Part shown: positions 7,138 through 31,070 of the stretch, in pieces
How the letters are laid out: every line of letters begins with the position of its first letter
How positions within the stretch are numbered: position 1 is the first letter of the stretch
DNA from: Clostridiales bacterium
GTDB lineage: Bacteria > Bacillota > Clostridia > Tissierellales > GPF-1
DNA: 32,844 bases
Assembly (NCBI GenBank): GCA_013619125.1
Contig: JABXKS010000096.1
Coordinates: forward strand, 1-32,844
Direction: 5' to 3'
Made by a program: the position numbers and the translations under genes
The notes under the pieces: generated by a model
What the model saw: the letters and a program-made list of their open reading frames with translations, nothing else
The model's database searches: none
Told to the model about the DNA's origin: nothing

Positions 7138-8022
7138 TTACTTGGAAATCGGAAAATTCAACTCTGACAATCTGAGTAAGGCAGCATCCGCGTTTAGCGC
7201 GCCCCAGCCACTGTTTATGTCGTATCCCGCTTGATTTAAATCAACCGCTGAGTCACAGAGAATACTTCGGATTTCTTCCGGTGTAAGATCCGGGTCTTCC
7301 GAGACCAGCAAAGCCACTGCACCCGACACATAGGCCGTCGCATAGGAGGTGCCGGATCCAAAAGTGGTTTTCCCCTCTGTGGTAGATGCAAGCTTGAGTC
7401 GATCCCCAGGGGCACAAATGAAAACAGAATCATTACACTGGGAAAAGCGGGCGACTTCCCCGTTTCTTTTTAAAGCGGAAACACCCAACACAGTCTCATA
7501 GGCCGCAGGGTAATAGATGTTTTCCGGGTAATATTGATTGGCATTCCCCACCGAAGAAATTAGGATAATGCCCTTTTCCTCCGCGTATTCCACCGCTGAT
7601 TGAAGCTCTTCCCCCGCCGACAAGGTGCCCGCGCTAATGTTGATAATCTGACAATCGTAAAGATCAATCGCATCACGAATCGCCTGCGCCAGCAACTCGC
7701 TGTCGCCAGCAAGCTTTTCTCCATCCGCTGTTTTTGTTGCGATAACAAGGGGAACAAGCTTTGCTTTGGGCGCAATCCCTTTGATATGAACCCCGTCCGC
7801 CCCTAAGATAATGCCCGCCACCGCCGTTCCATGGCCGATCCAATCTTGGGTGCCTGCGGGAGGGCGAAGATAATTGACTCCCTCAGCTAAATTTGCCGAA
7901 TCAAAGGCTTCAACAGCAATTCCAGTATCGATCAGTGCAATCCTTACCTCCGCATCTTCTGCATAGGCAGTCTGCCAAAATAGTATGATCAACAAAATGC
8001 AAACCAACCATCTTTTTTTCAT
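7138..8022 (-). CDS. Secreted subtilisin-like serine protease (S8) without an evident propeptide
   Basis: A 294-residue protein beginning with a clear signal peptide (MKKRWLVCILLIILFWQTAYA). The subtilase catalytic set follows: Asp32 in ALIDTGI, His64 in GHGTAVAG, Asn160 (oxyanion hole) in SSVGNAN and Ser226 in GSGTSYATAYVSGA. Only about ten residues separate the predicted cleavage site from the catalytic Asp motif, so the usual ~75-residue I9 propeptide that chaperones folding is missing. The mature part is close to the size of a bare subtilisin core and has no wall-binding domain. The ATG at 8022 has GGGGGAAG upstream; translation from earlier codons would bury the signal peptide. The gene starts 59 bp after the stop of giant gene A, across a GC-rich hairpin, so co-expression is likely. 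Processing of the neighbouring giant proteins is an inference. No convincing terminator is seen after it. Confidence 0.9.
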   Translation of the reverse strand: MKKRWLVCILLIILFWQTAYAEDAEVRIALIDTGIAVEAFDSANLAEGVNYLRPPAGTQDWIGHGTAVAGIILGADGVHIKGIAPKAKLVPLVIATKTADGEKLAGDSELLAQAIRDAIDLYDCQIINISAGTLSAGEELQSAVEYAEEKGIILISSVGNANQYYPENIYYPAAYETVLGVSALKRNGEVARFSQCNDSVFICAPGDRLKLASTTEGKTTFGSGTSYATAYVSGAVALLVSEDPDLTPEEIRSILCDSAVDLNQAGYDINSGWGALNADAALLRLSELNFPISK

Positions 8023-8044
8023 CTTCTCTTCCCCCTTCCCAGAA

Positions 8045-8069
8045 CCCCTGCCCGTCGTGCGGGCAGAGG
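8045..8069 (-). other. GC-rich intergenic hairpin between giant gene A and the subtilase
   Basis: On the minus-strand RNA a 10-bp stem with one G-U pair (CCTCTGCCCG / CGGGCAGGGG, 5-nt loop) lies between the two genes and ends about 22 nt before the subtilase start. It is not followed by a T-run, so it is not a standard terminator. It could be a processing or stability element, or partial attenuation. Confidence 0.45.
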
Positions 8070-8081
8070 CTCGATTAGCCA

Positions 8082-17000: not shown

Positions 17001-18137
17001 ACCCTCTTCAAAGCCTCCCTTTCCAGAAATGATAAATAGGGTGCCGTCACCTTCAACTTGAATGATGTCCATTTGATTCGGACTATTTATGTTTTTAATA
17101 GTAACTAGGGATTCAACCTGGGCTGGGCTCATTGAAGCCATCGCTTCAAGGGCAATTGTAAAGTCTGTTCCCTGATCTAGAGCACTGGCGAATTTAGGGG
17201 TCGCCAACTCAACCAATGGCGCCACTTCCCCATATTTTGCATACAAGATAAGGTCATGGGTTAAGGTGTCGCTGTTGTATACCTTATTTTCAAGATTTTT
17301 ATCATAATACCACCCTGAGAATATCTCATTTTCTTTGAAGGGAATTGGCAATTTTTCCAGGACCGATCCCCGTATCAAATGCTGCACTTCAATTTTACTG
17401 CCGCCGTTGGACACATAGGTAACACTCTGACTTGTCACATATGATCTCATCTTGCGTACTTCTGTCTGCGTTTGAGCCCCTATGTATTGACTGGAAAAGA
17501 GTTTATTCATACGCACGGAAAAGGTTGCCCCTTCCGCTCGTGTCGCATTACCCTTAGGTTGAAAATATCCCGCTTCGTCGCCAATGAACAAGCCGCTGTT
17601 CCACAATGTCATCACGGCATCCTTTGCATAGGATTCAATCGTTTCAAAGTCCACAGGGATTTTTTCGGCTGTCCCTTCAGGATAATCAATCCCATAGGCA
17701 TCAAAAAAACGAACCGTAAAGGTTGCCATCTGCTCCCGTGTAATCAATCCATCGGGATCAAAGCGATTGTCCCCAACACCTTGTGTAATCCCTTGCTCCA
17801 CGGCCCAGCGAACATAAGGCGCAAATTCATCATTCGCCTGAACATCCACGAATCGATCGGATTCCCACAGTTCACCAGCTTCCACACCCGCTATACGTCC
17901 CATCGCCGTAATAAACACGGCACGGGTCATCGGGTCATCAGGAGAAAAAACATCATTGCTTGTACCAGAAAAAAGCGTCGTGTCGACGGCTTCCAGGATC
18001 GCATCATAATACCACTCATTTTGATCGACATCCTTAAATAATTCATCCCCATTGTCATTCAAAGCAAATGCTGACACGGGTATGACATTCAGCAGCATCA
18101 ACAGGCAAAGCAACATGCTAATGATTCGTTTTTTCAT
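8082..18137 (-). CDS. Giant SLH-anchored surface protein, copy A (InlB B-repeat/MucBP array, 3351 aa)
   Basis: A secreted cell-surface protein of roughly 370 kDa. The signal peptide ends near VSAFA (residue ~25). Three SLH domains follow (about 33-83, 94-148, 165-213), with the motifs TRAVFITAMG, TREQMATFTVRF and TRAEGATFSVRM, expected to bind pyruvylated secondary wall polymer. One InlB-type repeat sits at 240-302. Residues ~303-1167 form a beta-rich region I cannot assign, with a WKWWG motif. An array of about 18 InlB B-repeats (GYxFxGW core) runs from 1168 to 2941; the first seven are interleaved with MucBP-like YRVEHYxQN modules. Then come a Calx-beta-like domain (~2945-3040) and a ~310-residue C-terminus ending in DLCN. 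An adhesin or matrix protein is likely. The ATG has GGGAG upstream. It is a colinear paralogue of copy B and lies directly upstream of the subtilase. Confidence 0.9.
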   Translation of the reverse strand: MKKRIISMLLCLLMLLNVIPVSAFALNDNGDELFKDVDQNEWYYDAILEAVDTTLFSGTSNDVFSPDDPMTRAVFITAMGRIAGVEAGELWESDRFVDVQANDEFAPYVRWAVEQGITQGVGDNRFDPDGLITREQMATFTVRFFDAYGIDYPEGTAEKIPVDFETIESYAKDAVMTLWNSGLFIGDEAGYFQPKGNATRAEGATFSVRMNKLFSSQYIGAQTQTEVRKMRSYVTSQSVTYVSNGGSKIEVQHLIRGSVLEKLPIPFKENEIFSGWYYDKNLENKVYNSDTLTHDLILYAKYGEVAPLVELATPKFASALDQGTDFTIALEAMASMSPAQVESLVTIKNINSPNQMDIIQVEGDGTLFIISGKGGFEEGSTYKMSLESENLIFQGFASSVRTFNFTIAKEDVLNLALSPDMNYLPFEQISNLIQEGEAVETLATPLAAVGGDGDEAMSNFTEGSFTYEGSLEVGSTVTIYQGIRPDLRVLDDTRDGADGAIAYVTITEASDNTYAFENAAAEDVLFTPDVLPLNPAEDTDGNPTNHSLTVLEAVMVYSDDQYAPLGLDSQTTVDVGDFIAFYQGPFGANAVMNGYGVIVSISQDEEFLVMEYEEVTLEEILAAMDMYNTEPMSGETLLEEADVAALEADIERQAIESGFADEAALYLSDLALKTDSFTQLSEDFELTGYELFSEDGTPIDPEELQLLGSESRVEVELDKLHANISTHLQHFDASGVRLTLDVGVKITIVAAEDKEIVITVTGTFEEEVHVSINVDGGAVWKWWGMFPTISEYEVTANMDIANFTGIGINASIVTKEKEDNVWTENKELQNISDELRSLLDKKDSMSGDGGTVADGLSDKYKAMLETESDWVNLFEQEIVKQVIPIPPIYVIVVELGVNFAVSADMNISLGCDFYYENAKRYSYTVEIFAQNVTSDVIDLSEEVYEFTFYAMGTMGLRAGIVVEVKVALISSKVASVGFSAESGIYTRVWGYFYYQLKYTASKGRSSGYAGAFFLEVGVYLEIQFEAQVGAGTLAYNPTLYENEWPLWSAGVQKSVQDFGYEETADLFLKKQIRSLTVSDDLFLMSYMDLKTGEEDEEHYDDASCFTIETTNDAFTYDTETNTLSVIPDEGEPIEEGELVIVWAGSALAFTSAPIQRVVKIHWDELNNGYTIAFETNGGSAVPMIVMPYNTPVAAIDEPVKSGYDFDGWYTDNTYQKAYEWPETMPDQDVIVYAKWLPREDTVYRVEHYQQNLNNYLYTLVEGDTQILAGTTDSFAKLVPNTYSGFHSPEAQNLMVLPDGSAVGKIYYSRDSFTATFDPGEAGGEATVSKFKFGKSIVAPQFGARGYEFASWDQEVPANMPANDLVFVAQWSPAADTSYRIEHYIQNTTGDGTTLSEIEERIGNTNQELLLQGFAKNWEGISFEKATVKGKPVASAEIKGDGSLVVKLYCLRNEYQVEYLVENGEDSETIYRYDALVAQPREPAKDGYTFSGWTSNLEGTEAFVFGETMPAQDVTVYGALIPNQGTPFSVEHYRQQTTGDDYDLVGTDQGAGVTDESLDVTSFARVEEGISYEKSWVNGKRVERVALAGDGSLVIQMHYLRNEYVMIHQISNGDDSQKTYRFDERIALPIVPRKAGYVFTGWKVDEALTEAYQTETMPSENQSVYGAYIPNRDTAYRVEHYQENVSGGYTLVNADQLFGVTDTQTAANANDYTGFSGKEWEQAVISGDGSTVIRIDYSRNIYEIELETAGGTINTGNFDAYTYGIGAPLPTDITRAGYAFDGWLEGTEQVAFITESEIGNKAYTASWVADRDTAYTVKHIREDLKGRYTIEEIETRTGTTDTETEASANDYTGFTAGVVVQNGIAGDGSTVVEIRYDRNTYVLNWNLLKGSMRGFYTQGVVKYGAPIIPPVVEEEGYTFSEWYAEPGLETGIDIPETMPAEDLVVFGTIIANSGIAYQIRHLLQNADDDGYTLADTEMLVGYTDEAVIATEEVYDYFIYDAGRSQESGTIDADGSLVLNLYYNRDVFTVDYEVDGESYGEQESYKHGETVRYPNLPEKEGYYFDAWQLAESSFTGNMPTENVLLTAAWSAGEKTYTVRYYQERLTYTDEKDRWALLTEASTVETGTFDSTIEVAPENEYTGFTTPETQEVILNSQLSTVDFQYVRNRYELVWNRNEGATTNDYTESGMICFGTPIVAPILVKTGESYVWDQTPAETMPAKALAYTAAWSPNAYWVDFNEAGLGRMSVIYGETYGTLPIPDKTGYRFDGWYTSNADDGEKIEGETLVAIAEDHRLYAHWTAKSYTLTWEFSGGTAGGDYTLGEVDFATQLIAPIPTRAGYTFAGWNPGVAETMLAEDLIYTAAWTANSYIVGFNEAGIGGLAVTYDNAYGDLPIPSKTGYQFTGWYTSTSNDGEKIESNSLVSIARDHILYAHWEVLAFTLTWDLTGGTAQGEYTQGNVDYGSPIIEPVPSKIGHAFNGWDREPASTMPTENLTYTATWTALTYPVSLNPNGGAIQSGNIETYTYGVGAVLPVDLAKTGYTFEGWYEGEEKIDRILTTDTEGKTYLASWSANSYAITYKYLEEASNHANNTNTYVFEIGLVLGTPTRTGYNFTGWYRDEACSIPITSISTSEIGPVDLYAGWVPKTYQVTLNTNGGTLSEGSGLSSYTYGIVAILPAADKISRTGYTFTGWTDGSGTVTEILSSTIGIQSYMATWVAVNYQISYVLNGGSNSSDNPSKYTIESADIRLGEPGKTGYGFDGWFIDGGFGTPAGSPAIPKGSSGNRTLYAKWKANSYRVVFNANEGEGTMAAQIFTVDAGQALHANAFAREGYDFVGWATSANGGKAYNNEASMINASLVDGGIVNLYALWSPITYAITYELNGGTNAANPVTYTVESQGIVLKDPSRGGGYVFSGWYQNSEFAGSAVTTIQAGTSGNLAFYALWKHYGVFTVSAGSNNTFTITRTGGFDESQRVYYRTQNGSAIGGTHFTHANSSVVFGQGESSKTITIQENAVSTAYAGKVATSYANVDRVYFFDLYKVEGGGALGTQTRMTRTMAKNASMVVDSNKLNNYQKIAASTGSRTIKEASDERQTYYGNIASPVLSNSAYSSTLQTYIRNTASAMKVQLQDFNSRDNGKRMRRYVLFLSGTTSPSFSSDVGTSVPNVPSNTKAALQFGFSSDIDDETSFNVDLPNSAGLIPADGTGRSVRIFDIKWASGQDQGDYVLYGLDETCGISLAAYCGAWLRQEWVFNSSKLYAQPKDVKEPSLLGIAPMANATYNDGDKIVIALVFDEIVASASNVKIRTALSPTAFTLTGGLGTNVLYFEGTVSGYGGTAPTKANTIIDNASNIKDLCN
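9315..14636 (-). repeat. Coding repeat array of copy A (InlB B-repeats with MucBP-like modules)
   Basis: Residues 1168-2941 of copy A are about 18 diverged units built around GYxFxGWY...YTAxW. MucBP-like units (YRVEHY, YRIEHY, FSVEHY, YRVEHY, YTVKHI, YQIRHL, YTVRYY) occur only in the first part of the array. The repeats are recognisable in protein but too diverged in DNA to be simple tandem repeats. Unit count is by eye. Confidence 0.8.
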
Positions 18138-18207
18138 TTATCCAACTCCCTTTTTTTATTACAGATCTCTACGAATACATAATAATCCCCATTATTCACC
18201 TTAATAT

Positions 18208-18254
18208 ATCATACAACTTAACATTTGTATATTTATGGTAATTTTTCCATAAAT
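18208..18254 (-). promoter_or_regulatory. Promoter region of copy A with 8-bp dyad at the -35 position
   Basis: A TATGAT -10 candidate (18213-18208) has no good -35. Instead the perfect inverted repeat ATTTATGG-AAAAATTA-CCATAAAT (18254-18231) begins exactly where the -35 hexamer would lie with a 17-bp spacer. A symmetric element replacing the -35 suggests control by a dimeric DNA-binding protein. It is unlike the direct repeats found ahead of copy B. Confidence 0.4.
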
Positions 18255-18279
18255 TATTTAAAAAAACGCCTCTATTCGC

Positions 18280-18315
18280 AAAAAAGCAAGCCGCCCCTTG
18301 ATCCAGACAACTTGC
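18280..18315 (-). terminator. Terminator after copy B
   Basis: On the minus strand GCAAGTTG pairs with CGGCTTGC (8 bp, two G-U) around a 14-nt loop, followed by six T. It lies about 40 bp after the copy B stop and upstream of the copy A promoter, so the two giant genes are probably separate transcription units. Confidence 0.7.
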
Positions 18316-18357
18316 CTTCTTTTTGATATTCCGTTCATTTTCTTGTTTTCAACTCAA

Positions 18358-21300
18358 TCAGTTGCACAAATCTTTAATATTGATTGCGTTATCGATAATC
18401 ACATTATCCTTAGTCGGTGCCGTTCCGCCGTATCCGCTTACGGTTCCTTCAAAATACAATACATTGGTACCTAATCCACCGGTCAAGGTAAAGGCCGTCG
18501 GTGACAATGCCGTTCGAATTTTAACATTACTCGCACTGTTAACAATTTCATCAAATACCAATGCGATGACAATTTTGTCCCCGTTGTTATAGGTCGCATT
18601 TGCCATCGGTGCAACCCCAAGCAGAGTTGGCTCTTTCACGTCTTTCGGTAGGGCAGAAAGTGTTGCACTCTTAAAGTACCACTCATGATTCAACCATCCA
18701 CTACAATACCCAGTAAGTGATATGCCGCAGGTTTCATCAAATCCGTAGAGAACATAATCTCCACGGTCCTGACCGCTTGCCCATTCGATATCAAATATTT
18801 TAACACCTCGACTTGTACCGCTCGCCGACACGTAGCCCGGTTGGGCAGGGAAATTAACGCCGAAAACAGTTTCATCATCCACATCGGATGCGAAGCCAAA
18901 TACCAAAGCTACTTTTGTACCGCTCGGTAGAGCCGGTACCGTTGTTTCTTTATCACTATTAAAACTTGGACTCCCCGTGCCGCTGTTGAACAAGACAAAT
19001 CGGTACATGCGATTTCCATTATCTCGACTATAAAAATCGGTCAACCTAACCTTCATGGCAGAAGCCGTATCTTTGATATAGGTTTGCAAGTTCGCATTAT
19101 ATTGGTTGTTATTCAAAACCGGACTGCTGAGTCTAACATATTCCGTCGTATTCCAATCACCACCTGCATTTTCAGCAACTTTCCAATCCCCATAATTAAC
19201 ACTTGCGAGCCATTTGTAATTGTTTAGCATACTGCTGTCAATCGCAAAATTGGCATCCTTTGTCATGGTTCTCATAGCACGAGTCTGAGTACCCAGGGCC
19301 CCGCCGCCTTCTATCTTATAGAGGTCTAGAGAATACACCCGGTCAGCGTTGGAATAACGGGTTGCCACCTTTCCCGCATAGGCCGTACTTACCGCATTTT
19401 CTGAAATGGTGATCGTTTTAGCTGATTCTCCCTGTCCAAAGACCACAGATCCATCCACATGAGTGAAGTGGGTACCACCAATGGCAGACCCATTTTGCGT
19501 GCGGTAGTACACCCTTTGATTCTCATCAAAGCCTCCGGTGCGGGTAATCGTAAATGTATTGCCGTTTCCGGCAGATATCGTAAATACGCCATAGTGTTTC
19601 CACTGCGCATATAAAGCTAGATTCCCTGAAGTACCGGCTTGAATACTGGTCACCCGGGTATCTGTAAACGCAGAATTTTGATACCAGCCGCTAAAGACAT
19701 ACCCACCCTCACGGGTTGGATCCTTCAACGCAATCCCCTGACTTTCAACGGTATAACCCGTCGGATTAGCCGCATCCGTGCCACCATTCAGCTCATAGGT
19801 AATGGTATAGGCAATCGGACTCCATAGGGCATACAGATTGACGATCCCCGCATCCACCAGGGTAGCATTGATCACAGATGCCTCGTTGTCGTAGATCTTA
19901 CCTCCGTTAGCAGACGTGGCCCACCCAACAAAATCATATCCCTCACGGGCAAAGGTATTTGCTCGTAGTGTTTGTTCCACGTCAACCGTAAAGTTCTGGG
20001 CAGCCATTGTACCTTCCCCCTCGTTCGGAGTAAAGACGACCGTGTATGGATTCGCCCTCCAACGCACATAGAGCGTAACATTTCCAGTGCTTTCATTTGG
20101 AATTTCAGGACTTTCCACAGATGTTTCAAATCCATCGTCTTTGAACCAGCCGTCAAATGCATATCCCACTTTTTCCGGCTCTCCCAAGCGGATATCCGCA
20201 GATGCAATCGTATATTTACTTGGATTGCCCTCACTGTTGCTTCCGCCGTTGAGTTCATACAAAATGTTATAGTTCACGACCAACCATGTCGCCGAATAGG
20301 ATTGATCTCCTGTCGTTGTTAATGGAATTTCGGTTACTGTCCCACTGCCATCTGACCAGCCAGCAAAGGTATAACCCATCCTGCTGATTTTATCCAATCG
20401 AGGCAAAGCCGCAACAATCCCATAGGTGTACGAGGAAAGTCCACTTCCCTCGGACAAGATGCCTCCATCTGTATTCAAAGTGACCGAATAAACTTTCGGC
20501 ACCCAACCCGCGTAGAGCCCAACAGGTCCCATCTCAGTTGCTGAAATAGACAAGACTGGGATGCTAAGCGCTTCGTCTTCGTACCAGCCATTAAAATCAT
20601 GGCCGGTTCGCGTCGGTGTTCCAAGGACCAAGCCAATTTCAAACACATAGGTGGCTCCATTGTTCGGATGGTTGTTTGCCCCCTCCATGTTGTAATAGGT
20701 GATTGGATAAGAATTAGCGGACCACTTGGCAAGATAGGTCTTGCTTCCCGTATCCGTTGCCTGAATTTGTTCGATTTTCCTTTCGCCATCATACCAGCCC
20801 GTGAAGGTGTATCCCGCTTTCACCATGTCCGCAGGAAGTGGGGCACCAATCCCGTAGGTATATGCATCAATGCTTCCATTCTGAATGACGCCCCCATTCG
20901 GGTTCAAGGTGACCGAATAGGTTAAAGCTGTCCATGTTGCCGTATAGGTCAGATTTTCTGTTGGCATTGTGCTTGCCGGTTCTGGTTCCCATTCGGCGAA
21001 AGAATGACCGATTTTGCTTGGTACCGGTTCGATGATCGGGGTTCCATAATCAACATCTCCCCGGGTATAGTCCCCCTGGGCTGTCCCACCGGTTAAATCC
21101 CAGTTCAAATGGAACACCAAAACCTCCCAATGTGCGTATAAGATATGGTTCCGCGCGATAGAAACAATGCTGTTTGATTCGATTTTTTCACCATCATCCG
21201 CATTGGATGTATACCAGCCATTGAACCGATACCCGATTTTGCTTGGCACTGGCAAATCACCATAGGCTGTGCCATATGTCACACCTAAGCCACCTGCACC

Positions 21301-24300
21301 AATCTCATTGAAGCCGACCACATAGGATTTAGCTGTCCAGGTTGCTGTATAAATCAGATTCTCAGCCGGCATAGTATCGGCCACTCCAAGATCCCAACCT
21401 GCAAATGCATAGCCAGTCTTGGTTGGCACCGGTTCAATCAGAGGTGTATCGAAATCGACATCCCCCGATGTAAAATCACCTTCTGCTGTACCACCTGACA
21501 GCTCCCAGGCAAGGGTGTAACTTTTCGCTGTCCAATGAGCATAGAGGATATGATCCTCTGGGATTGTCACAATACTCTCTGCTTCGATTTGTTCAGCGCC
21601 ATCAACAGAAGATGTAAACCAACCATCGAAACGATACCCCGTCTTTTCAGGCACGGGCAAGGCCCCATAGGCTTCACCATAGGTTACACGAATACCTTCC
21701 AACCCAGCTTCATTAAATCCCACGCGATACGAATTCGCAGACCAGTTTGCCGTGTATGCCAATTCTTCTGCAGGCATCGTTTCATCAATTGTTCGATCCC
21801 AGACATAGCTTTCGCCCGTTTTGACAAGAATCGGTGCAACGATCGGCGCGTTAAACTTGATCATTCCGCTTCGAGTGTAATTATTAATTGAAGATCCCTC
21901 ATTGAGGTTCCACACCAATCCATATTGCTTGCGCGTATAGTGGAAATCCACGGTAGACAATTGACTGTTTAAGATCACGTCTTGCGGATCTGGCGTCTCA
22001 AAGCCGACAAATTGTTTTTCCGGCACGACTTCTATGGTTGTGTCGAAGGTACCAACTTCGATCACACTCTCGTCAGCCATTAAGGCCCAACGGTCCATCT
22101 CGTTCGTATAGGTCAGCCGTTCTTGATAAACCCGGAGCGTATAGGATTTTTCTCCCGCTGACCAAGTCGCTGTCAACGTGATATTTTGAGTAGGCATATT
22201 GCCTGCAAATAATGCACCCTCCAGCTGCCATGCATCGAAGAAATAGCCTTCCTTCTCTGGTGGATTTGGATAACGAACGGTTTCTCCATGTTTGTAGCTC
22301 TCTTGCTCGCCGTAGGACTCTCCATCCACCGCATAGTCAACGGTAAAGATTTCTCGATTGTAATACAGCTTTAGAGCAAGACTGCCGTCAGCATCAATGG
22401 TACCTAATTCCTGAGATCGATCGGCGTCATAAATGAAATCCTCATAGAATTCTTCGGTGGCGGTAACGGCTTCATCCGTATAGCCCGTCAAATTTTCTGT
22501 ATCGGACAGGGTATATCCGTTATCATCGGCATTTTGAAGAAGATGCTCGATTCGATACGGAATTCCACTATTAGCCGTGATCGTCCCGAATAGAATCAGG
22601 TCCTCTGCCGGCATGGTTTCTGGAACCTCAATCTCGGTTTCAAGGCTTGCTTCTTCATACCATCCAGAGAAGGTATAACCATCTTTACTCACTTGCGGTT
22701 GGGTAATTGGCTCACCAAATTTAACCATTCCATCTGTATAAAATCCCCGCATACTGCCATCAAGCAGATTCCAGTTCAAGAGATACTCGTTTCTCTGATA
22801 TCGAATTTCAATCACGGTTCCCCCGTCGCCCGATATCTGACTCTGAATAACGGGACTAGGGGTAAAACCGATATAATCATTTGCATAAGCTTCCGTTTCG
22901 GTATCGGTTGTTCCATATTGGATTTCCGTTTCTTCGATCGTGTATCGACCACTCAAGTCTTCTCGGATGTGTTTTACCCGATAAGCCGTATCGGTTTCAG
23001 GCAACCAAGTAGCCGTGTATTGTTTGCTTCCCGTTTCGATTTCTGCAATATAGGCGACCTGCATCGTTCCTTCAAGCCATCCATCAAAGATATACCCTGC
23101 CCGAGTAATATCGGTCGGCAATGATTCGCCAATTCCATAGGTGTAGACATCAATATCTCCACTATGGATCGTACCGCCGGCAGTATCCAAGTCCACCTCA
23201 TAGATGTTGCGGTCGTAATCAATTCGAATGACTGTCCTTCCATCTCCCGAAATAGCAGCCTGATTCCATGCTTTCGCCGTAAAATCCGTATAGGACTCAG
23301 CCATAGCTGTAGTTGGTGTATCGGTAACCCCTGCAAGCTGATCGGCTTTTACCAAGGTGTATCCATCCGACACATTCTCTTGATAGTGCTCGACCCGATA
23401 TGGGGTGTCGCTATTGGGGATAAATTCACCATAGGCCATCAGATTTTCATTCGGCATTGTTTCCACCTGAAAATCCTCTGTGAGCGACTCATTACTTTTC
23501 CATCCAGTGAAGATATATCCCGCCCTAGATGGTACAACTGGCAATGTAATTCGCTCTTCATAGCGATAGGTCTTTTGACTATCGTCCCCATTCTTGATTT
23601 GATGCATCATCACATATTCATTTCGAGTGTAATAGAGTTGAATCACCAAGGACCCGTCACCAGCAATGGTGGCGTTTTCCACCGTTTTACCCTCTACCGT
23701 TGCCTTTTCGTAACGCTTGCCCTCTTCCTCTCGTGCAAAACTTATCACATCAAGGCTTTCATCGGTAATACCCGCTCCTTGATCGGTCCCAGCCAAATCA
23801 TAGCCCGTTCCTGCGGTGTTTTGAACATAGTGTTCGACATGGAATTCCGTCCCTTCATTGGGGATCAGCACGCCATAAACGGTCAACGCGCCGGCCGGCA
23901 TGGCCTCGCCAAAAACAAAGTCTTCCGTTCCTTCCAAATTGGTTTTCCACCCCGAGAAGGTGTATCCCTCTTTCGCAGGGGTCATTGGCTGTGCAATGCG
24001 CTCGCCAAAACGATAAGAGATGCTGCGGTTTTCTCCATTTTCAACCCGATACTCAACCTGATATTCATTTCTTTTATCGTACAATTTAACGACCAGGCTG
24101 CCGTCACCCTTGATTGAAGCGCTGTCAGTAACTTTTCCCTCAACGGTTGATTTTTCAAAGGTCAGTCCTTCAACCGACCTTGCAAAATCAGAAATGCGCA
24201 ATGTTTGATTCGTCGTTCCACTTTTTTGTTCAATTTCACTTAATGTATATCCGTCCCCCGTGGTGTTTTGGATATAATGCTCAACCCGATACACCGAATT

Positions 24301-27300
24301 CTTTCCAGGATTCCATCGAGCGACAAAAACCAAATCTTCTGCCGGCATGGTATTCGGAATTTCTTGGTTCCAGGATGAAAATTCATACCCCTTCGCATTG
24401 AACTGCGGCGCCACAACTGTCTTTCCAAATTTGTACTTGCAAACTGTCGGTTCACCGCCTGGCTCTCCCGGATCAAAGGTTGCTGTAAAACTATCACGAG
24501 AATAATAGTACTTTGTAACGGCACTGCCATCCGGCAAGATGCTTAGGTTTTGCATTCCTGGAGAATGGAATCCAGCATACGTCATTGCTACAGGCCCGAC
24601 AATCCTGTCCGTTGTCCCATAGAGACTTTGGGTATCCGTCTCAACCAAGGTATAAAGATAATTGTTTAAATTCTGTTGATAATGCTTAACCGTATACACC
24701 GTATCCTCGCGCGGAATCCACTTGGCGTATACAACCACATCTTCATTCGGCATGGTTGCCGGAATTTCATACGCAGTTTTAAAGCTATTGTCCGTATACC
24801 AACCGTCAAAGTCATACCCCTGCTTTATTGGCTCGACTGCTCCTGTGATCGGTGCATTGAACCGCTCTAAAATCATCGGTACCGCACTGCCGCCGTTGGT
24901 ATCAAAAATAATCGTATAGCCATTATTCAGATTATCCCAATAAATATCCACAGATCGTGTAATCGGAGCCGAGGTAAAAGCCAGCGGCGCCCCCGCCCAG
25001 GTAATCACAAGCTGTCCTTCTTCGACCGGATCACCCGGGTCCGGATCAACCGAAAGCGTATTGGTTTCGGAATCATATGAAAAGGCGTCATTTGTAGTTT
25101 CAATCGTAAAATGGGTCGCATCATCGAATACTTGATCGTCCACATCCCCTGTTTTAAGATCCATGTAACTCATCCTAAAAAGGTCGTCAGGAACCGTGAG
25201 GGAGCGAATCTGCTTTTTCAAGAGCAGCTCGCCGGTCTCCGCGTATCCAAAGTCCTGAACATTATTCTGCTCACCTGCCGACCACAACGGCCACTCATTT
25301 TCATAGAGTGTTGGATTGTAACAGAAGGTTCCGGCAAAGGCCTGCGCCTCAAATTGAATTTCCAGATAGATTCCCAATTCAAAATACAACGCTCCCGCAT
25401 ATCCACTGCTCCGCCCCTGAGAGGCGGTATATTCCAATTGATAGTAAAAGTATCCCCAGACGCGGGTATAAACCCCCGCTTCCGCCGAGAATCCGACACT
25501 GGCAGCCTTGGTGGTAAAGAGTCCAACCTTGATTTCCGCGATAATACCGGCTTTCAGTCCCATGGTGCCCATGACGTAGAAGGTAAACTCATAGTGCTCT
25601 TCCACCATGTCGATCACATCGCTGGTCACATTCTTTCCAAAGACTTCAACGGTATAGGAATATCGCTTTGCATTTTCATAGTAGAAGTCGCATCCTATAG
25701 AGATGTTCATATCCACTGAAACTGCAAATTTCACGCCTAGTTCAACCACGATAATATAGATCGGCGGAATCTGAATTTCTTTACTGAAGATATCTTTTTC
25801 AAAGAGATTGACCCAGTCGCTTTCCGTGTCAATCATCGCCTTGTACTTATCTGCCAAGCCATCGGCTACGGTACCTTCACCACCGCCGATCAGCGGATCC
25901 TTTTTATCCAGAAGTTTCCTTAGCTCGTTGCTGATATTTTGAAGCTCCTTGTTATCTGTCCATACATTGTCTTTCTTTTCCTTTGTCACAATGCTGGCAT
26001 TGATCCCAATCCCCGTGAAGTTAAACAGGTCGGTATTGGCCGTCACTTCATATTCCGAGATGTATGGAAAAATTCCCCACCATTTCCAGACTGCTCCTCC
26101 GTCCACATTGATGGCGATCCGCACTTCTTCTTCGAAGGTACCGGTCACCGTGATTACAATTGCTGTATCGTCATTGACCGAGATCTTAATTTTGACTCCC
26201 ACATCAAGGGTAAGCCGTACGCCAGAGGCATCAAAATGCTGCAAGTGAGTAGAGATATTCGCCTGCAATTTATCCAATTTCACCTCGACTTTGTTTCCGC
26301 TACCCAGCAGTTGCAATTCCTCGGGGTCGATTAAATTCCCATCTTCAGACATTAGTTCATAGCTGGTCAGCTCAAAATCTTCACTTAATTCCGTGAACGA
26401 ATCCGTTTTCAAAGCGAGTTCAGACAAATACAAGGCCGCTTCATCCGCAAACCCGCTGTCGATCGCCTGCTGCTCGATATCGGCTTCCAATGCCGCCACA
26501 TCGACTTCTTCCAACAGGGCATCGCCACTCATGGAATCAGTATTGTACATATCCATTGCCGAAAGAATTTCATCCATTGTAGCATCCGTATATTCGATGA
26601 CCACAAATCCATTTTCACGGCTCAGCGAGGTGATCAATCCATATCCAGTCACATTGGCATTCGGGCCAAACTCTCCCTCATAAAATGCGACATAGTCGCC
26701 AATATCAACCGTTGTCTGGGAATCCAGTTGCATCGGTGCATACCGGTCGTCGGAATATTCCATCGCAGTTTCATTGACCGTAAGAGAACGGTCAACGGGG
26801 TTTCCGTCGGTATCCTCTACTCGATTCAAAGGAAGCACATCCGGCGTAAACAAGACATCTTCCGCTTCTGCGCTGACAAAAGTGTATGTATTCCCGTTTG
26901 CTGCTGTAATGGTCACATAGGCAATCTCGCCATCCGCACCGGCTCTCGTATCATCCAATACGCGCTGATCGGGCCGAATTCCGTTATAGATCGTAACCGT
27001 GTCGCCGATTTTCAGCATTTTATCATAGGTAAAAGTACCTTCTGTAAGGTCGGAAAGCGCAGAACTGTTTGTGCCACCCACGGAAGCCAGGGGAGTCGAC
27101 AAGGTTTGAACCCTTCGCCCCTCTTGACTGAGACTGCCAACCTGGTCAAATGGGATATAGATCATATCCGGACTTAGGGCCAGGTTCATCACATCCTCTT
27201 TGGCGATGGTAAAGTTGTAATTGCGGACAGAAGGCCCAAATCCTTGAAAATACAATGCCTCATTTTCAAGGGTAATTCTGTAGGTTGCCCCCGCTTCAAA

Positions 27301-28425
27301 TCCACCGATACCTGAAAGAATAAAAGCACCACCATTCCCTGTTACCTGAACGAAGTTCTTTTGGTTGGGACTATTCAAGTTTTTGATCGCAACAGATGCG
27401 ATTACCTGCTCATTGGTCATCACACTCAAGGCTTCCACGGTAATCGAGAAATTGGTATCCTGATCCAATGCGCTGGCGAAAGACGGAGTTTCTGACTCTG
27501 CCAAAGGTGCTGCATCCCCATATTTTGCGTAAAGGGTGATGTCCTCAGTTAGGATATCGTTGCTATAAACACGATTTTCAAAATTTTTATCGTAGTACCA
27601 CCCTGAAAATATTTCGTTTTCCTTATACGGGATCGGCAGCATCTCAAGGGACGAACCCTTTCTAAGGTGTTGCGTTTCAATATCACTACCGCCGTTAGAA
27701 ACGTATTCAATGTTGTAATTGATTGAATAGGTTCTCATCTTTCCCGGTTTTTCCGGTGTTTGAGACTGTGCGATTGCGATTGCAAAAATCTGATTCATCC
27801 GCACCGAAAAGGTTGCCCCCTCGGCACGAGTTGCATTGCCTTTTGGATTGAAAAATCCCTCTCCATCTCCAACAAACAGCCCGCTGTTCCAAAGCTTCAT
27901 TACCGCATTCTTTGCATAGTCTTCGATCTTGTCGTAATCAGCCGGAGCCGCTTTCACGATGGTCTGCGGGTAGGGAATTTTGTAGGCATCAAAAAAACGA
28001 ACGGTAAATGTCGCCATCTGCTCCCGTGTAATCAGACCATCGGGACTGAATATATGGTTACCCACCCCTTGACTAATCCCTTTATCAGCCGCCCACATGA
28101 CATAGGGTGCGTAGTCGGCATTTGCCTTTACATCTGAAAAGAATCCGTCTTGTACTGGATAGCTGTTTTCAACTTCTGCAATATGCCCGATCGCCGTTAC
28201 ATACATGGCGCGAGTCATCGGATCATTCGGTGCAAAAGTATCGGATTTTATACCCGAAAAAAACTCATTTTCCACTGCGTCGAGAACGGATTCGTAAAAC
28301 CAGTCAGCTTGATTGACATCGTCAAACGGCTCACTCTTGTTTCTCTCCATCGCAAAAGCCGATAAGGGCACCGTATTCAATAACATTAACAAGCAAAGCA
28401 TCATACTTACAATTCGTTTCTTCAT
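18358..28425 (-). CDS. Giant SLH-anchored surface protein, copy B (InlB B-repeat/MucBP array, 3355 aa)
   Basis: This paralogue has the same order of parts as copy A: signal peptide (MKKRIVSMMLCLLMLLN, cleavage near LSAFA), three SLH domains in the first ~215 residues, one InlB-type repeat, an unassigned region to ~1168, and an InlB/MucBP array at residues 1169-2942 that has the same length as in copy A. A Calx-beta-like domain and a C-terminal domain ending DLCN follow. Most positions look identical by eye. The most different part is about 3045-3160 (for example NYGDWKVAENAGG), while the last ~75 residues are almost the same. The start at 28425 matches the copy A signal peptide and has GAGGG about 10 nt upstream; an in-frame ATG 15 codons earlier has no binding site and would put charged residues before the signal peptide. 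It is the first gene downstream of the kinase/LytTR operon, with LytTR-like sites in its promoter. Confidence 0.9.
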   Translation of the reverse strand: MKKRIVSMMLCLLMLLNTVPLSAFAMERNKSEPFDDVNQADWFYESVLDAVENEFFSGIKSDTFAPNDPMTRAMYVTAIGHIAEVENSYPVQDGFFSDVKANADYAPYVMWAADKGISQGVGNHIFSPDGLITREQMATFTVRFFDAYKIPYPQTIVKAAPADYDKIEDYAKNAVMKLWNSGLFVGDGEGFFNPKGNATRAEGATFSVRMNQIFAIAIAQSQTPEKPGKMRTYSINYNIEYVSNGGSDIETQHLRKGSSLEMLPIPYKENEIFSGWYYDKNFENRVYSNDILTEDITLYAKYGDAAPLAESETPSFASALDQDTNFSITVEALSVMTNEQVIASVAIKNLNSPNQKNFVQVTGNGGAFILSGIGGFEAGATYRITLENEALYFQGFGPSVRNYNFTIAKEDVMNLALSPDMIYIPFDQVGSLSQEGRRVQTLSTPLASVGGTNSSALSDLTEGTFTYDKMLKIGDTVTIYNGIRPDQRVLDDTRAGADGEIAYVTITAANGNTYTFVSAEAEDVLFTPDVLPLNRVEDTDGNPVDRSLTVNETAMEYSDDRYAPMQLDSQTTVDIGDYVAFYEGEFGPNANVTGYGLITSLSRENGFVVIEYTDATMDEILSAMDMYNTDSMSGDALLEEVDVAALEADIEQQAIDSGFADEAALYLSELALKTDSFTELSEDFELTSYELMSEDGNLIDPEELQLLGSGNKVEVKLDKLQANISTHLQHFDASGVRLTLDVGVKIKISVNDDTAIVITVTGTFEEEVRIAINVDGGAVWKWWGIFPYISEYEVTANTDLFNFTGIGINASIVTKEKKDNVWTDNKELQNISNELRKLLDKKDPLIGGGEGTVADGLADKYKAMIDTESDWVNLFEKDIFSKEIQIPPIYIIVVELGVKFAVSVDMNISIGCDFYYENAKRYSYTVEVFGKNVTSDVIDMVEEHYEFTFYVMGTMGLKAGIIAEIKVGLFTTKAASVGFSAEAGVYTRVWGYFYYQLEYTASQGRSSGYAGALYFELGIYLEIQFEAQAFAGTFCYNPTLYENEWPLWSAGEQNNVQDFGYAETGELLLKKQIRSLTVPDDLFRMSYMDLKTGDVDDQVFDDATHFTIETTNDAFSYDSETNTLSVDPDPGDPVEEGQLVITWAGAPLAFTSAPITRSVDIYWDNLNNGYTIIFDTNGGSAVPMILERFNAPITGAVEPIKQGYDFDGWYTDNSFKTAYEIPATMPNEDVVVYAKWIPREDTVYTVKHYQQNLNNYLYTLVETDTQSLYGTTDRIVGPVAMTYAGFHSPGMQNLSILPDGSAVTKYYYSRDSFTATFDPGEPGGEPTVCKYKFGKTVVAPQFNAKGYEFSSWNQEIPNTMPAEDLVFVARWNPGKNSVYRVEHYIQNTTGDGYTLSEIEQKSGTTNQTLRISDFARSVEGLTFEKSTVEGKVTDSASIKGDGSLVVKLYDKRNEYQVEYRVENGENRSISYRFGERIAQPMTPAKEGYTFSGWKTNLEGTEDFVFGEAMPAGALTVYGVLIPNEGTEFHVEHYVQNTAGTGYDLAGTDQGAGITDESLDVISFAREEEGKRYEKATVEGKTVENATIAGDGSLVIQLYYTRNEYVMMHQIKNGDDSQKTYRYEERITLPVVPSRAGYIFTGWKSNESLTEDFQVETMPNENLMAYGEFIPNSDTPYRVEHYQENVSDGYTLVKADQLAGVTDTPTTAMAESYTDFTAKAWNQAAISGDGRTVIRIDYDRNIYEVDLDTAGGTIHSGDIDVYTYGIGESLPTDITRAGYIFDGWLEGTMQVAYIAEIETGSKQYTATWLPETDTAYRVKHIREDLSGRYTIEETEIQYGTTDTETEAYANDYIGFTPSPVIQSQISGDGGTVIEIRYQRNEYLLNWNLLDGSMRGFYTDGMVKFGEPITQPQVSKDGYTFSGWYEEASLETEIEVPETMPAEDLILFGTITANSGIPYRIEHLLQNADDNGYTLSDTENLTGYTDEAVTATEEFYEDFIYDADRSQELGTIDADGSLALKLYYNREIFTVDYAVDGESYGEQESYKHGETVRYPNPPEKEGYFFDAWQLEGALFAGNMPTQNITLTATWSAGEKSYTLRVYQERLTYTNEMDRWALMADESVIEVGTFDTTIEVVPEKQFVGFETPDPQDVILNSQLSTVDFHYTRKQYGLVWNLNEGSSINNYTRSGMIKFNAPIVAPILVKTGESYVWDRTIDETMPAEELAYTANWSANSYRVGFNEAGLEGIRVTYGEAYGALPVPEKTGYRFDGWFTSSVDGAEQIEAESIVTIPEDHILYAHWTAKSYTLAWELSGGTAEGDFTSGDVDFDTPLIEPVPTKTGYAFAGWDLGVADTMPAENLIYTATWTAKSYVVGFNEIGAGGLGVTYGTAYGDLPVPSKIGYRFNGWYTSNADDGEKIESNSIVSIARNHILYAHWEVLVFHLNWDLTGGTAQGDYTRGDVDYGTPIIEPVPSKIGHSFAEWEPEPASTMPTENLTYTATWTALTYSVTLNPNGGVIQNGSIDAYTYGIGAPLPADMVKAGYTFTGWYDGERKIEQIQATDTGSKTYLAKWSANSYPITYYNMEGANNHPNNGATYVFEIGLVLGTPTRTGHDFNGWYEDEALSIPVLSISATEMGPVGLYAGWVPKVYSVTLNTDGGILSEGSGLSSYTYGIVAALPRLDKISRMGYTFAGWSDGSGTVTEIPLTTTGDQSYSATWLVVNYNILYELNGGSNSEGNPSKYTIASADIRLGEPEKVGYAFDGWFKDDGFETSVESPEIPNESTGNVTLYVRWRANPYTVVFTPNEGEGTMAAQNFTVDVEQTLRANTFAREGYDFVGWATSANGGKIYDNEASVINATLVDAGIVNLYALWSPIAYTITYELNGGTDAANPTGYTVESQGIALKDPTREGGYVFSGWYQNSAFTDTRVTSIQAGTSGNLALYAQWKHYGVFTISAGNGNTFTITRTGGFDENQRVYYRTQNGSAIGGTHFTHVDGSVVFGQGESAKTITISENAVSTAYAGKVATRYSNADRVYSLDLYKIEGGGALGTQTRAMRTMTKDANFAIDSSMLNNYKWLASVNYGDWKVAENAGGDWNTTEYVRLSSPVLNNNQYNANLQTYIKDTASAMKVRLTDFYSRDNGNRMYRFVLFNSGTGSPSFNSDKETTVPALPSGTKVALVFGFASDVDDETVFGVNFPAQPGYVSASGTSRGVKIFDIEWASGQDRGDYVLYGFDETCGISLTGYCSGWLNHEWYFKSATLSALPKDVKEPTLLGVAPMANATYNNGDKIVIALVFDEIVNSASNVKIRTALSPTAFTLTGGLGTNVLYFEGTVSGYGGTAPTKDNVIIDNAINIKDLCN
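19600..24921 (-). repeat. Coding repeat array of copy B (InlB B-repeats with MucBP-like modules)
   Basis: Residues 1169-2942 of copy B show the same unit order as copy A, including the seven MucBP-like modules and one degenerate unit (GESYVWDRT, matching GESYVWDQT in copy A). Both arrays measure 1774 residues between the same landmarks (GYTI at the start, KHYG just after the end), so no net unit has been gained or lost since duplication. Confidence 0.8.
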
Positions 28426-28542
28426 TTTCAGTACGCCCTCTTTTCTTTTATTCACATCTGGTATTTTCATATGTAATAAATTTCTTGCCTATTTCTTTTA
28501 CGAGCCGATCTGCTGCACGGCAATAAGAAAACACTATTCCCG

Positions 28543-28562
28543 TTTGATTTAACGAAATCAAA
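28543..28562. other. Hairpin in the long 5' leader of copy B
   Basis: TTTGATTT-AACG-AAATCAAA is a perfect 8-bp inverted repeat in the ~165-nt leader between the candidate promoter and the copy B start. It lacks a terminator T-run on the minus strand. Its function is unknown; it may affect mRNA stability or bind a protein. Confidence 0.3.
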
Positions 28563-28596
28563 AAACAAATATTCCCAATTATCTACCGTTTAATTT

Positions 28597-28658
28597 ATCA
28601 TAAAGGAAGAGTCGCAACTGATTTTGGGGTAATTGCCCTATTTTTCGGGGTAATTGCC
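28597..28658 (-). promoter_or_regulatory. LytTR-type direct-repeat operator and promoter of copy B
   Basis: On the minus strand GGCAATTACCCC occurs twice without mismatch (28658-28647 and 28637-28626), start to start exactly 21 bp, two helical turns. The downstream repeat abuts the -35 position of a TATGAT -10 (28602-28597). The hexamer at the -35 position is AAAATC, a poor match, as expected for an activator-dependent promoter. Paired direct repeats of about 9 bp with 12-bp gaps next to a weak -35 are the known target layout of LytTR regulators such as AgrA, ComE and VirR. A LytTR regulator gene lies about 1.4 kb upstream. Confidence 0.65.
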
Positions 28659-28662
28659 GATA

Positions 28663-28707
28663 ACCAAAAAAAGGCAAACTGTCAGTTTGAATCGACAGTT
28701 TGCCTTT
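28663..28707 (-). terminator. Terminator of the LytTR/kinase operon
   Basis: AAAGGCAAACTGTC and GACAGTTTGCCTTT form a perfect 14-bp stem (28670-28683 with 28694-28707, 10-nt loop), followed by T residues on the minus strand. It begins 10 bp after the kinase stop codon and insulates the copy B promoter. Confidence 0.92.
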
Positions 28708-28716
28708 ATCATTTTC

Positions 28717-30072
28717 TTAAAATTCCCGCCTTGCGTTCAGTACAATTTGCGTAATAAAATACCCGTTTTCAATCGAGAATCCCGCTATACCATCATACTC
28801 CTCCGCGGTATAGAAAATACTTTTCGTCCCTGTTCCTCCACCTTGTTTTTGAGTGAGCGGCAATTCCCCATTGAAATCAATATTCGGGATGCAGCTATTC
28901 TCTACGTGAATGCGCAAACGCCGATCAAAAAACTTAGCCCTCACGATAATTTCTTTTTTATCCTCTGAAGGAAGTCTCAAACAACCTTCCAATGCATTTT
29001 CCAAAGCATTTCCAAGAACACAGGTGAGATCAACGTTATCGATGCCTATCTCCTCCGGTATATTCACATGGAATTCCGATTTGATATTTTCCTTCTCTGC
29101 ACGATCAGCATAGAGGTTGAACAAACTATTGGCAATTGGATTTTTACAGAATTCCTGGGTATAATCGGCATCCAGTGCAGCATCATAGCTTTTCATGTAG
29201 GCTTTCAGTTCCTCTATTTCTTCACTTTGCAACATCCCGCTAATCACTGCATTATGGTGATGCATATTGTGCCGTTGCTCAAAGGCCAGCTCCGACGCAG
29301 TCTTTTGTCGTTCCAACTCCAATTCCCAAAGCTTTTCCTGCTGTGACATCAACAGCTGCCTCTTTTCCAAAAGGTACTTTTCCACGATGGCATTTGCCTG
29401 AACATACAACAGGTAATAGACCGCTATAAACAGCAAATAGACAGCAAACGTGATGATTTTATACCAACTGCTGCTATCCCATTCCCAGTAGGGTACGGGA
29501 TAGTAGAGAAGTAAAATCTGAAGAAGTAAAAAAACGAGGGGGACAAGTGTCGCCGCCCTCCATTCTTTGTCTAGGATCTCCACTAGCCGATGTACTCGAG
29601 GTCGAACCAATTTGAAGAGCAGGAATATGATGCTCGCAAAGATAAGCGTTCGCAGGATGATATACACCATAACTTTCTGTACGCCTTCCAAGTTCATGGA
29701 CAGATTATTACCGATATAACTAATGGAAATATAGATATTGACAAAGGTCAGAAAATTAAAAAGAGAGACAAACAAGGCATTCCCCGAACAGATCAGATAC
29801 CAGATCGAGAACGCTATAAGAATGATCACAACGGCATATCCCCCCACCGCTTGCGCTCCAAAAGCAGCAAGCGCATAAAAAAACACGCTCATACTCAAAA
29901 CCATAAAGGAGAGGGCAACGATAATTCGTTTTTTTACTGGCTCACGAAACTGCATGACCGAGGCCGACATAAGTGAAAAACCAACGATAGATTCCAAAAA
30001 TGAAAAAAATACTAGAGCAGCATAGAACATGGTCCACCTTCTTCCAATTGATTGCCCTGCTTCAACATCCAT
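28717..30072 (-). CDS. GHKL-type sensor histidine kinase (AgrC/LytS-like)
   Basis: A 451-residue membrane kinase. Residues ~15-225 hold about six membrane helices with very short loops and no separate extracellular sensor domain, as in AgrC-type peptide sensors. A coiled-coil-like linker (~228-262) leads to the phosphoacceptor region QRHNMHHHNAVI (His268 likely), and then to a GHKL ATPase with N-box GNALENALEGC (354-364) and G-box GGGTGTKS (411-418). The start is uncertain: the ATG at 30072 has AAGAAGAG upstream, while the ATG at 30030 has the better GGAAGAAGG and begins directly with the first helix. It lies 27 bp after the LytTR regulator gene, so the two form a pair. No agrB, agrD or other peptide gene is seen nearby, so the signal is unknown. 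Confidence 0.9.
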   Translation of the reverse strand: MDVEAGQSIGRRWTMFYAALVFFSFLESIVGFSLMSASVMQFREPVKKRIIVALSFMVLSMSVFFYALAAFGAQAVGGYAVVIILIAFSIWYLICSGNALFVSLFNFLTFVNIYISISYIGNNLSMNLEGVQKVMVYIILRTLIFASIIFLLFKLVRPRVHRLVEILDKEWRAATLVPLVFLLLQILLLYYPVPYWEWDSSSWYKIITFAVYLLFIAVYYLLYVQANAIVEKYLLEKRQLLMSQQEKLWELELERQKTASELAFEQRHNMHHHNAVISGMLQSEEIEELKAYMKSYDAALDADYTQEFCKNPIANSLFNLYADRAEKENIKSEFHVNIPEEIGIDNVDLTCVLGNALENALEGCLRLPSEDKKEIIVRAKFFDRRLRIHVENSCIPNIDFNGELPLTQKQGGGTGTKSIFYTAEEYDGIAGFSIENGYFITQIVLNARREF

Positions 30073-30099: not shown

Positions 30100-30819
30100 T
30101 TACATTTGAAAACGTAAAAACTCTTCTTTGAGTTTTTTATAAGACCTGTAGGGGTATGCAATCTGCTCCCCCGTATCAAATGAAATGGCTTTCTTGGAAA
30201 CCTGGCGAATATATTTAAGATTCAAGTTCAACGAGGCACCGCATCTGATGAAAAACTTATTCACTGAGAGCAGGGTAAAAAGTTCCACCGATGTCATTCG
30301 CACCTCCGATTTCTGACCTTGAATGGTATGAATCCACTGATAGTTGTTTCGGCTTGTTTCGGTGTACACCACATCTCTAGGCGCAATGCGTGAGACCCCC
30401 TCTGATGTCTTAAGAATGATCCTCGCTCGCCGGTCTACCTCAATGCGCTTCATCACCTGATCCAACGCTGCAAAAAGAGCTTCATTCCGATACGGCTTCA
30501 CTAGATATTGTGCAGCATTCACTTCAAATGCTTCCAAAGAATGGTCTCGAGACGTGGTGAGAAAAATGATCTCACCCTCATCACCAAGGATTCTCAACTC
30601 TCTTGCTACATCGATCCCTTTGATACCACTCATATATATATCAAGAAGCAGCACATCAAAACCACCATTCTCCTCCACAAAGGATAAGAGCTCAAATGAC
30701 GCAGAGAAGGTATGAATCTTAATTTCATATTGTGGATGCTCTTTAATATATTGTAAAAGTAAGCCTTTGGTGCGCTCAATTTCTTGGGATTCATCGTCAC
30801 ATATTGCAAGTTCAATCAT
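30100..30819 (-). CDS. LytTR-family response regulator
   Basis: A 239-residue two-component regulator. The receiver domain (1-~125) shows the acidic pair Asp8/Asp9 (ICDDE), phosphoacceptor Asp60 (LLLDIYMSG), Thr88/Thr89 and Lys108 (YLVKPY). The LytTR DNA-binding domain covers about 135-237, including FFIRCGASLNLNLKYI, a typical LytTR core. Such proteins bind paired direct repeats about two helical turns apart and activate virulence, bacteriocin, competence or cell-surface genes. The gene is first in the operon with the GHKL kinase. The nearest promoter carrying such repeats is that of giant gene B. The ATG at 30819 has AAGGG about 10 nt upstream. Confidence 0.93.
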   Translation of the reverse strand: MIELAICDDESQEIERTKGLLLQYIKEHPQYEIKIHTFSASFELLSFVEENGGFDVLLLDIYMSGIKGIDVARELRILGDEGEIIFLTTSRDHSLEAFEVNAAQYLVKPYRNEALFAALDQVMKRIEVDRRARIILKTSEGVSRIAPRDVVYTETSRNNYQWIHTIQGQKSEVRMTSVELFTLLSVNKFFIRCGASLNLNLKYIRQVSKKAISFDTGEQIAYPYRSYKKLKEEFLRFQM

Positions 30820-30962: not shown

Positions 30963-31070
30963 AAAAAAAAAGACCAAAGTCTTTTTCTTTTGGTACCGAC
31001 CCCCAAAGATTAGATTTCACTCTAACTTTTGGGGTTAAGCACCTCTCGCATTCTAGAGATTGGTCTTTTT
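30963..31070 (-). ncRNA. Fold-back element: candidate structured leader RNA or riboswitch-like terminator
   Basis: The element is bounded by perfect 11-bp inverted repeats (AAAAAGACCAA at 30967-30977, TTGGTCTTTTT at 31060-31070). On the minus-strand RNA it folds into an outer stem, a small CUCU/AGAG hairpin and a long arm (ACCCC-AAA...GUUAGA with UCUAA...UUUGGGG). The 3' part offers an alternative hairpin (ACCAAA/UUUGGU) followed by up to eight U. The outer stem and this terminator share the same 3' strand, so they exclude each other, which is a riboswitch-like arrangement. I match it to no known riboswitch class. It could simply be an elaborate terminator for the DUF2179 gene, which ends 40 bp upstream, or a small MITE-like element. 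Confidence 0.45.

Follow-up and report, generated by a model that had tools for sequence, protein, structure and literature searches.

A conserved tandem repeat upstream of a giant surface-protein gene as a predicted operator of the neighbouring LytTR response regulator in a Clostridiales bacterium

Organization of the locus

The window analyzed here, i.e. the whole stretch of 32,844 nucleotides from a Clostridiales bacterium, carries a two-component system next to the genes of two giant proteins, A and B. Along the minus strand the order is response regulator, sensor kinase, a hairpin, two copies of GGCAATTACCCC, an extended -10, a leader and gene B (Table 1). The preliminary description of this DNA had noted perfect 12-bp direct repeats 21 bp apart, and both copies proved to be exact; they are separated by 9 bp, and the repeat match in the window stretches to 15 of 16 bases. 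It had also placed a LytTR regulator and its kinase in the neighbouring operon, in agreement with our domain calls, which give a LytTR response regulator and a GHKL kinase. The hairpin sits 3' of the kinase gene and sets it apart from the gene B promoter. Gene B most likely starts at 28425 and not at the first in-frame ATG at 28470, because the MKKRIV of its orthologs begins there. The transcript would start near 28585, leaving a leader of about 160 nt. Between a DUF5698/DUF2179 gene and the regulator, at 31000-31034, lies an imperfect inverted repeat, CCCCAAAAGTTAGA...TCTAATCTTTGGGGG, possibly a terminator or the end of a mobile element.

Table 1. Features of the predicted operator region and its neighbourhood in the window.
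Feature	Position	Strand	Remark
LytTR response regulator (239 aa), predicted to bind the operator	30100-30819	minus	Pfam Response_reg + LytTR
GHKL (HATPase_c_5) sensor kinase	28717-30072	minus	Pfam; about six hydrophobic segments at the N-terminus (hydropathy)
Terminator-like intrinsic hairpin	28670-28707	minus	15-pair stem, then T run
Upstream half-site GGCAATTACCCC	28647-28658	minus	exact match; counterparts in 18 tandem sites of 12 genomes, window included
Downstream half-site GGCAATTACCCC	28626-28637	minus	exact match; 21-bp spacing in all 18 sites
Extended -10 TGA-TAAATT = TGATAAATT	28592-28600 (hexamer 28597-28592)	minus	no recognisable -35
Gene B, 3355 aa, predicted target	18358-28425	minus	Pfam: 3 SLH domains + 16 Listeria-Bacteroides repeats

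Rarity and conservation of the tandem site

The repeats had been put forward as a candidate binding motif. In the genome of 3,418,141 bases, GGCAATTACCCC occurs twice, both times in this tandem, and a search for the tandem with up to three mismatches found only the site before gene B. A relaxed search with a 10-mer pair and up to three mismatches returned four other places. All had three mismatches, and one was this same site read on the reverse strand; since the backwards control gave two, no second target in the genome is credible at this setting. Within the window there are two perfect 12-bp direct repeats at lags of 12-40, namely the predicted operator and one at 3508 with a lag of 20, which lies within an ORF. 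Dinucleotide shuffles of 28426-28716 contained such a repeat at lags of 12-40 in 24 of 20,000 cases and at lags of 20-22 in 4 of 20,000. No Rfam match was found within the window.

The preliminary description had named conservation of the repeats in relatives as a point to be checked. A first set of 60 genomes (own included) held five complete regulator orthologs, with identities of 90% (G002), 85% (G001), 63% (G053), 62% (G021) and 61% (G045). Using a 12-mer word derived from the window alone and lags of 10-32 bp, we detected a tandem pair at all five loci, each time at 21 bp. Five more orthologs of 56-63% identity came from a second collection (L052, L055-L058), and the pair was again present in 5/5, with sites picked at lags of 20-22 bp. 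A phylum-wide draw of 398 genomes (own included) added one more ortholog, G385 (57%). This twelfth genome was tested after the motif had been fixed and carries TGCAATTATCCC-9-AGCAATTACCCC between the kinase gene and a giant SLH/List_Bact gene. The 21-bp tandem is thus found at 18 sites in 12 genomes, i.e. in the window and in 11/11 other genomes with a complete ortholog (56-90% identity), beside the regulator, the kinase or a surface-protein gene. The kinase orthologs adjoining the regulator are 56-86% identical, and at least seven of the 12 site-bearing genomes are labelled as metagenome assemblies. Loci L050, L051, L053 and L054, whose contigs equal those of L038, L039, L040 and L041 in length, show the same sites as these and were counted once. 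One site with four mismatches (L057:7614) came solely from a relaxed local scan and not from the genome search with three mismatches. The lag profile was built on sites already picked and is not an independent test of the spacing.

In a leave-one-out matrix, built without the site's own genome (for the window, without its genus), the 18 sites scored 28.2-43.6. Disregarding all positions up to 60 bp from a site, the highest score in the rest of each locus was 2.2-12.4. The pairwise identity of 17 sites was 0.84 over the 24 operator bases and 0.31 over the 60 bp upstream.

As a control, 159 kb of DNA around the genes of more distant regulators (39 loci) contained no tandem site at lag 21 with up to five mismatches. 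These control loci were selected by similarity to the regulator, mostly with about 1.5 kb of flank each; in the loop alignment at least one of them (L064) does not resemble LytTR, and L020 and L026 are represented only in part. Across the order (249 genomes, up to three mismatches) the pattern is rare, with 15 places in 13 genomes, and the backwards pattern gave one match, in G016. Orthologs of at least 61% identity were found, at E 1e-20 and among at most 11 candidates per genome, in seven genomes of the order, and six of these account for eight of the 15 places. The seventh, G059 (L042), gave no pattern match; in it the contig ends within the regulator gene, for which reason it is not counted among the 12. 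The remaining seven matches, with two to three mismatches each, lie in seven genomes without such an ortholog. Five of these fall in reading frames of more than 150 aa (L067-L070 in one conserved long frame, L066 in another) and two (L065, L071) in no frame of that length.

Promoter geometry, regulator and target genes

Downstream of the repeats the preliminary description had seen a -35 with no consensus match. This part stands, as the best match there is 1/6; the promoter itself is better read as the extended -10 TGATAAATT, 28 nt past the second repeat. At this offset of 28-29 nt, which was first read off the site alignment and then scored, TGnTAnnnT is present at 15/17 sites (0.14 of 17 expected from shuffles) and TAnnnT at 17/17 (1.8 expected). 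In G385, found after the offset had been set, TGCTATATT lies 28 nt past the second repeat. At none of the 17 sites does a -35 at 16-18 bp match in more than 3/6 bases, as expected for activator-dependent promoters. In published LytTR systems the repeats are 9 bp long, their spacers mostly measure 12 bp and the -35 tends to follow after 10 bp (PMC6193735, excerpt), and the -10 should therefore follow at about 32-33 nt; counted from the 9-mer half-site, the hexamer here starts 31 nt downstream. The predicted arrangement is that of an activator standing in for the -35.

The regulator matches Response_reg with 55.2 bits and LytTR with 28.7 bits, both above the cut-off, and thus combines the receiver and LytTR domains of a LytTR-family response regulator. 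D8, D9, D60 and K108, which we take to be the functional residues of the receiver, are invariant in 11 aligned rows. Among solved folds, the predicted structure (mean pLDDT 83.8, pTM 0.58) matches ComE best over the full length. A profile search with the LytTR domain returned 3d6w with an E value of 0.0042 and, weakly, AgrA with 0.13-0.15. In the profile alignment R192, C193, G194, A195 and S196 correspond to R198, C199, H200, N201 and S202 of AgrA, numbered as in the available text of PMC4227749. There FhRhHRS is given as the most conserved LytTR motif; the regulator departs from it, with RCG instead of RhH in the contact loop. The assignment to the LytTR family rests on the domain match and stands, since accepted members depart from the motif too, AgrA for example with N in place of R. 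Position 194 is G in 12/12 orthologs, and position 195 is A or V in 11 of them and S in G385. In the 39 control rows position 194 is H in 30, G in four, Q in two, N in one and a gap in two, and position 195 is R in 28/39. Because four control rows (L060, L061, L076, L077) have G as well, this residue alone is not unique to the clade. Two of these, L060 and L061, which are Oscillospiraceae/Clostridia regulators of about 34% identity, share the CGAS loop; no GGCAATTACCCC pair or related operator is visible near them. The twelve orthologs form one clade in a tree of 20 rows, with support of 94/98, just below the tool's mark of 95 and 80.

AgrB was not found beside the regulator-kinase pair in the 11 genomes searched (G385 not among them), so that the agr-type arrangement, with AgrB encoded together with kinase and regulator, is not seen. 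Six of the 11 hold no AgrB anywhere; in the other five it lies on other contigs or, in G001, about 1.47 Mb away. An AgrB-made peptide is therefore unlikely as a general signal, and quorum sensing of this type was rejected.

Eight of the 12 genomes have a site in the junction between regulator and kinase (L039, L040, L041, L052, L055-L058); none was found there in the genus of the window (0/3) or in G385. In nine genomes (window, G001, G002, G053, L052, L056, L057, L058, G385) a site stands between the kinase and the gene that follows it, and in G021 an unlinked site precedes an SLH/List_Bact-repeat gene. Nine of the ten non-kinase genes behind a site encode SLH, List_Bact or LRR repeats. SLH domains together with List_Bact repeats are present in six of these genes (window, G001 in its first 2000 aa, G002, G021, L057, G385). 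In L056 and L058, where the retrieved DNA ends within the reading frame, the gene shows List_Bact repeats alone, and that of G053 (Sedimentibacter) combines LRR_5 with SLH. In one relative a PAS-GGDEF gene (L052:7404-8792) takes the place of a surface-protein gene behind the conserved operator, which suggests that the output may there feed into cyclic-di-GMP signalling. The retrieved contig of L055 ends within the kinase, and in G045 (L040) no site or target was seen beyond the kinase. With the matrix, none of 11 loci showed a tandem site ahead of the regulator gene itself; a single GGCAATTA occurs there in the window and is missing from the upstream stretches of G001 and G002 that were compared.

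Genes A (8082-18137, 3351 aa) and B are tandem paralogs, and their products show an identity of 60% in the first 400 aa and of 74% in the last 499. In the stretch before gene A (18138-18357) no tandem operator was detected with the matrix, and the two giants are therefore probably under different control. Directly 3' of gene A lies a Peptidase_S8 (subtilase-family) gene (7138-8082). Its homolog in G002 (82%) follows the giant gene, and that in G045 (L040, 49%) lies upstream of the regulator gene; it perhaps encodes a processing protease travelling with the system.

Proposed switch and comparison with known LytTR systems

We interpret the repeats as the operator of the neighbouring LytTR regulator and as the activation site for gene B, and we put the probability of this whole explanation, which is drawn from sequence comparison, at roughly 0.87. 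The preliminary description had already read the repeats as a candidate LytTR operator, and the conservation of the pair, its linkage to the regulator clade and the near-fixed distance to the -10 support that reading. The membrane kinase would sense a signal, upon which the regulator would be phosphorylated and bind both half-sites head-to-tail, on one face of the DNA and two helical turns apart. The bound regulator would then recruit RNA polymerase to the extended -10 promoter that lacks a -35 and thereby turn on, rather than repress, gene B and its SLH/List_Bact-repeat product. In those genomes where an operator copy precedes the kinase gene, this copy would add positive feedback.

The same site could also serve repression, with the regulator abutting the promoter and blocking RNA polymerase until the kinase signal releases it. 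The operator indeed ends directly at the -35 position, and CoxC is a LytTR repressor whose operator overlaps the -35 (PMC11347149, excerpt). However, with no -35 of at least 4/6 the 17 promoters should be weak unaided, the sites before the kinase would give negative feedback where LytTR systems are described with positive feedback (PMC6193735, excerpt), and the excerpt of PMC11347149 itself describes most regulators of the LytTR type as activators that bind upstream of the -35. We therefore regard a repressor as unlikely. We give even less weight, as a very improbable case, to another, unlinked transcription factor that controls surface-protein and kinase genes through the repeats. The regulator is a predicted ligand of the site, and seven genomes of the order match the pattern without a close ortholog, yet none of these stray matches has fewer than two mismatches and five of the seven lie in long reading frames, whereas the sites accompany the regulator clade in 12/12 genomes and lie inside the regulator-kinase unit in eight of them.

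That the repeats arose by chance, belong to a mobile element or form part of an RNA structure or terminator is hardly conceivable. The window does hold the other perfect repeat at 3508, and the half-sites are partly self-complementary, 16/34 matching their own reverse complement at 8/10 positions. Against this, the GGCAATTACCCC tandem is confined to one place in the genome, and the 21-bp pair is conserved between genomes while its flanks diverge. Genome uniqueness, conservation and shuffles thus led us to discard a chance or mobile repeat; an inverted-repeat site was rejected with perfect palindromes in only 2/34 half-sites, and an RNA element in view of the Rfam result.

On the activator reading, the system is by all predictions ordinary LytTR logic with a lineage-specific word. 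What sets it apart is an altered contact loop, a C-rich word of 12 bp and its dedication to giant surface proteins. We hold it somewhat less probable than not that these features amount to a separate LytTR specificity class, in which Gly plus Ala/Val/Ser replace His/Arg in the loop, the C-rich half-site GGCAAWTRCCCC is correspondingly longer and the system serves mostly one target, as a dedicated switch for the display of giant, adhesin-like SLH/List_Bact proteins. In that case giants A and B would be expressed under different conditions, gene A being without the operator. The analysis yields an operator that can be searched for concretely in a two-component system not characterised before, and it points to giant surface proteins, a class found here in mostly uncultured anaerobes, as what this system probably controls. 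Moreover, a changed LytTR contact loop paired with its own DNA word offers a test case for how beta-type DNA-binding domains read sequence. In title-level literature listings we found no paper on the pairing of such a regulator with giant surface proteins and none joining LytTR, S-layer homology and response regulator; the letters of the 12-mer GGCAATTACCCC turned up in three papers, all unrelated by title.

The combination of a GHKL kinase and a LytTR response regulator resembles AgrA/AgrC of Staphylococcus aureus and ComE/ComD of Streptococcus pneumoniae, whose partner kinases we take to be of the GHKL type. The AgrA loop reads FFRCHNS and that of the regulator FIRCGAS, and with 42 bits the regulator remains far below the NCBI cut-off for AgrA of 400 bits. 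A further paper, PMC6222199, concerns an OmpR-type regulator in its available part and was set aside.

LytTR sites have been described, in excerpts of PMC4847170, PMC6193735 and PMC2766830, as 9-11-nt repeats with 11-13-nt spacers, and according to the first of these they share geometry and not a consensus. The site studied here fits this geometry, as 21 bp from start to start equal a 9-mer plus a 12-bp gap, the whole conserved word being 12 bp, and it lies just upstream of a promoter with the predicted -10 at 28-29 nt. YpdB of Escherichia coli is likewise a LytTR response regulator, and its yhjX promoter oligonucleotide contains GGCATTTCAT twice, 21 bp from start to start as here (PMC4847170, excerpt). 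GGCATTT is common to that site and to the half-sites of G021 and L055. In contrast to our system, YpdB works with a LytS-type kinase and has another target and a differently ending half-site.

Similar features were described, in the available part of PMC6193735, for HdrR and BrsR of Streptococcus mutans and other LytTR Regulatory Systems. They also employ a LytTR regulator and repeats of mostly 9 bp with a 12-bp gap, i.e. 21 bp from start to start, just upstream of promoters, several of which have an extended -10 as found here. Their half-site ACCACTTAC matches 6/9 bases of GGCAATTAC. Feedback sites on their own genes are shared as well, here before the kinase and not before the regulator. However, HdrR and BrsR belong to regulator/membrane-inhibitor pairs, whereas the system described here consists of a receiver-domain response regulator and a GHKL kinase, has a 12-bp repeat ending in CCCC and has a giant surface protein as its predicted target.
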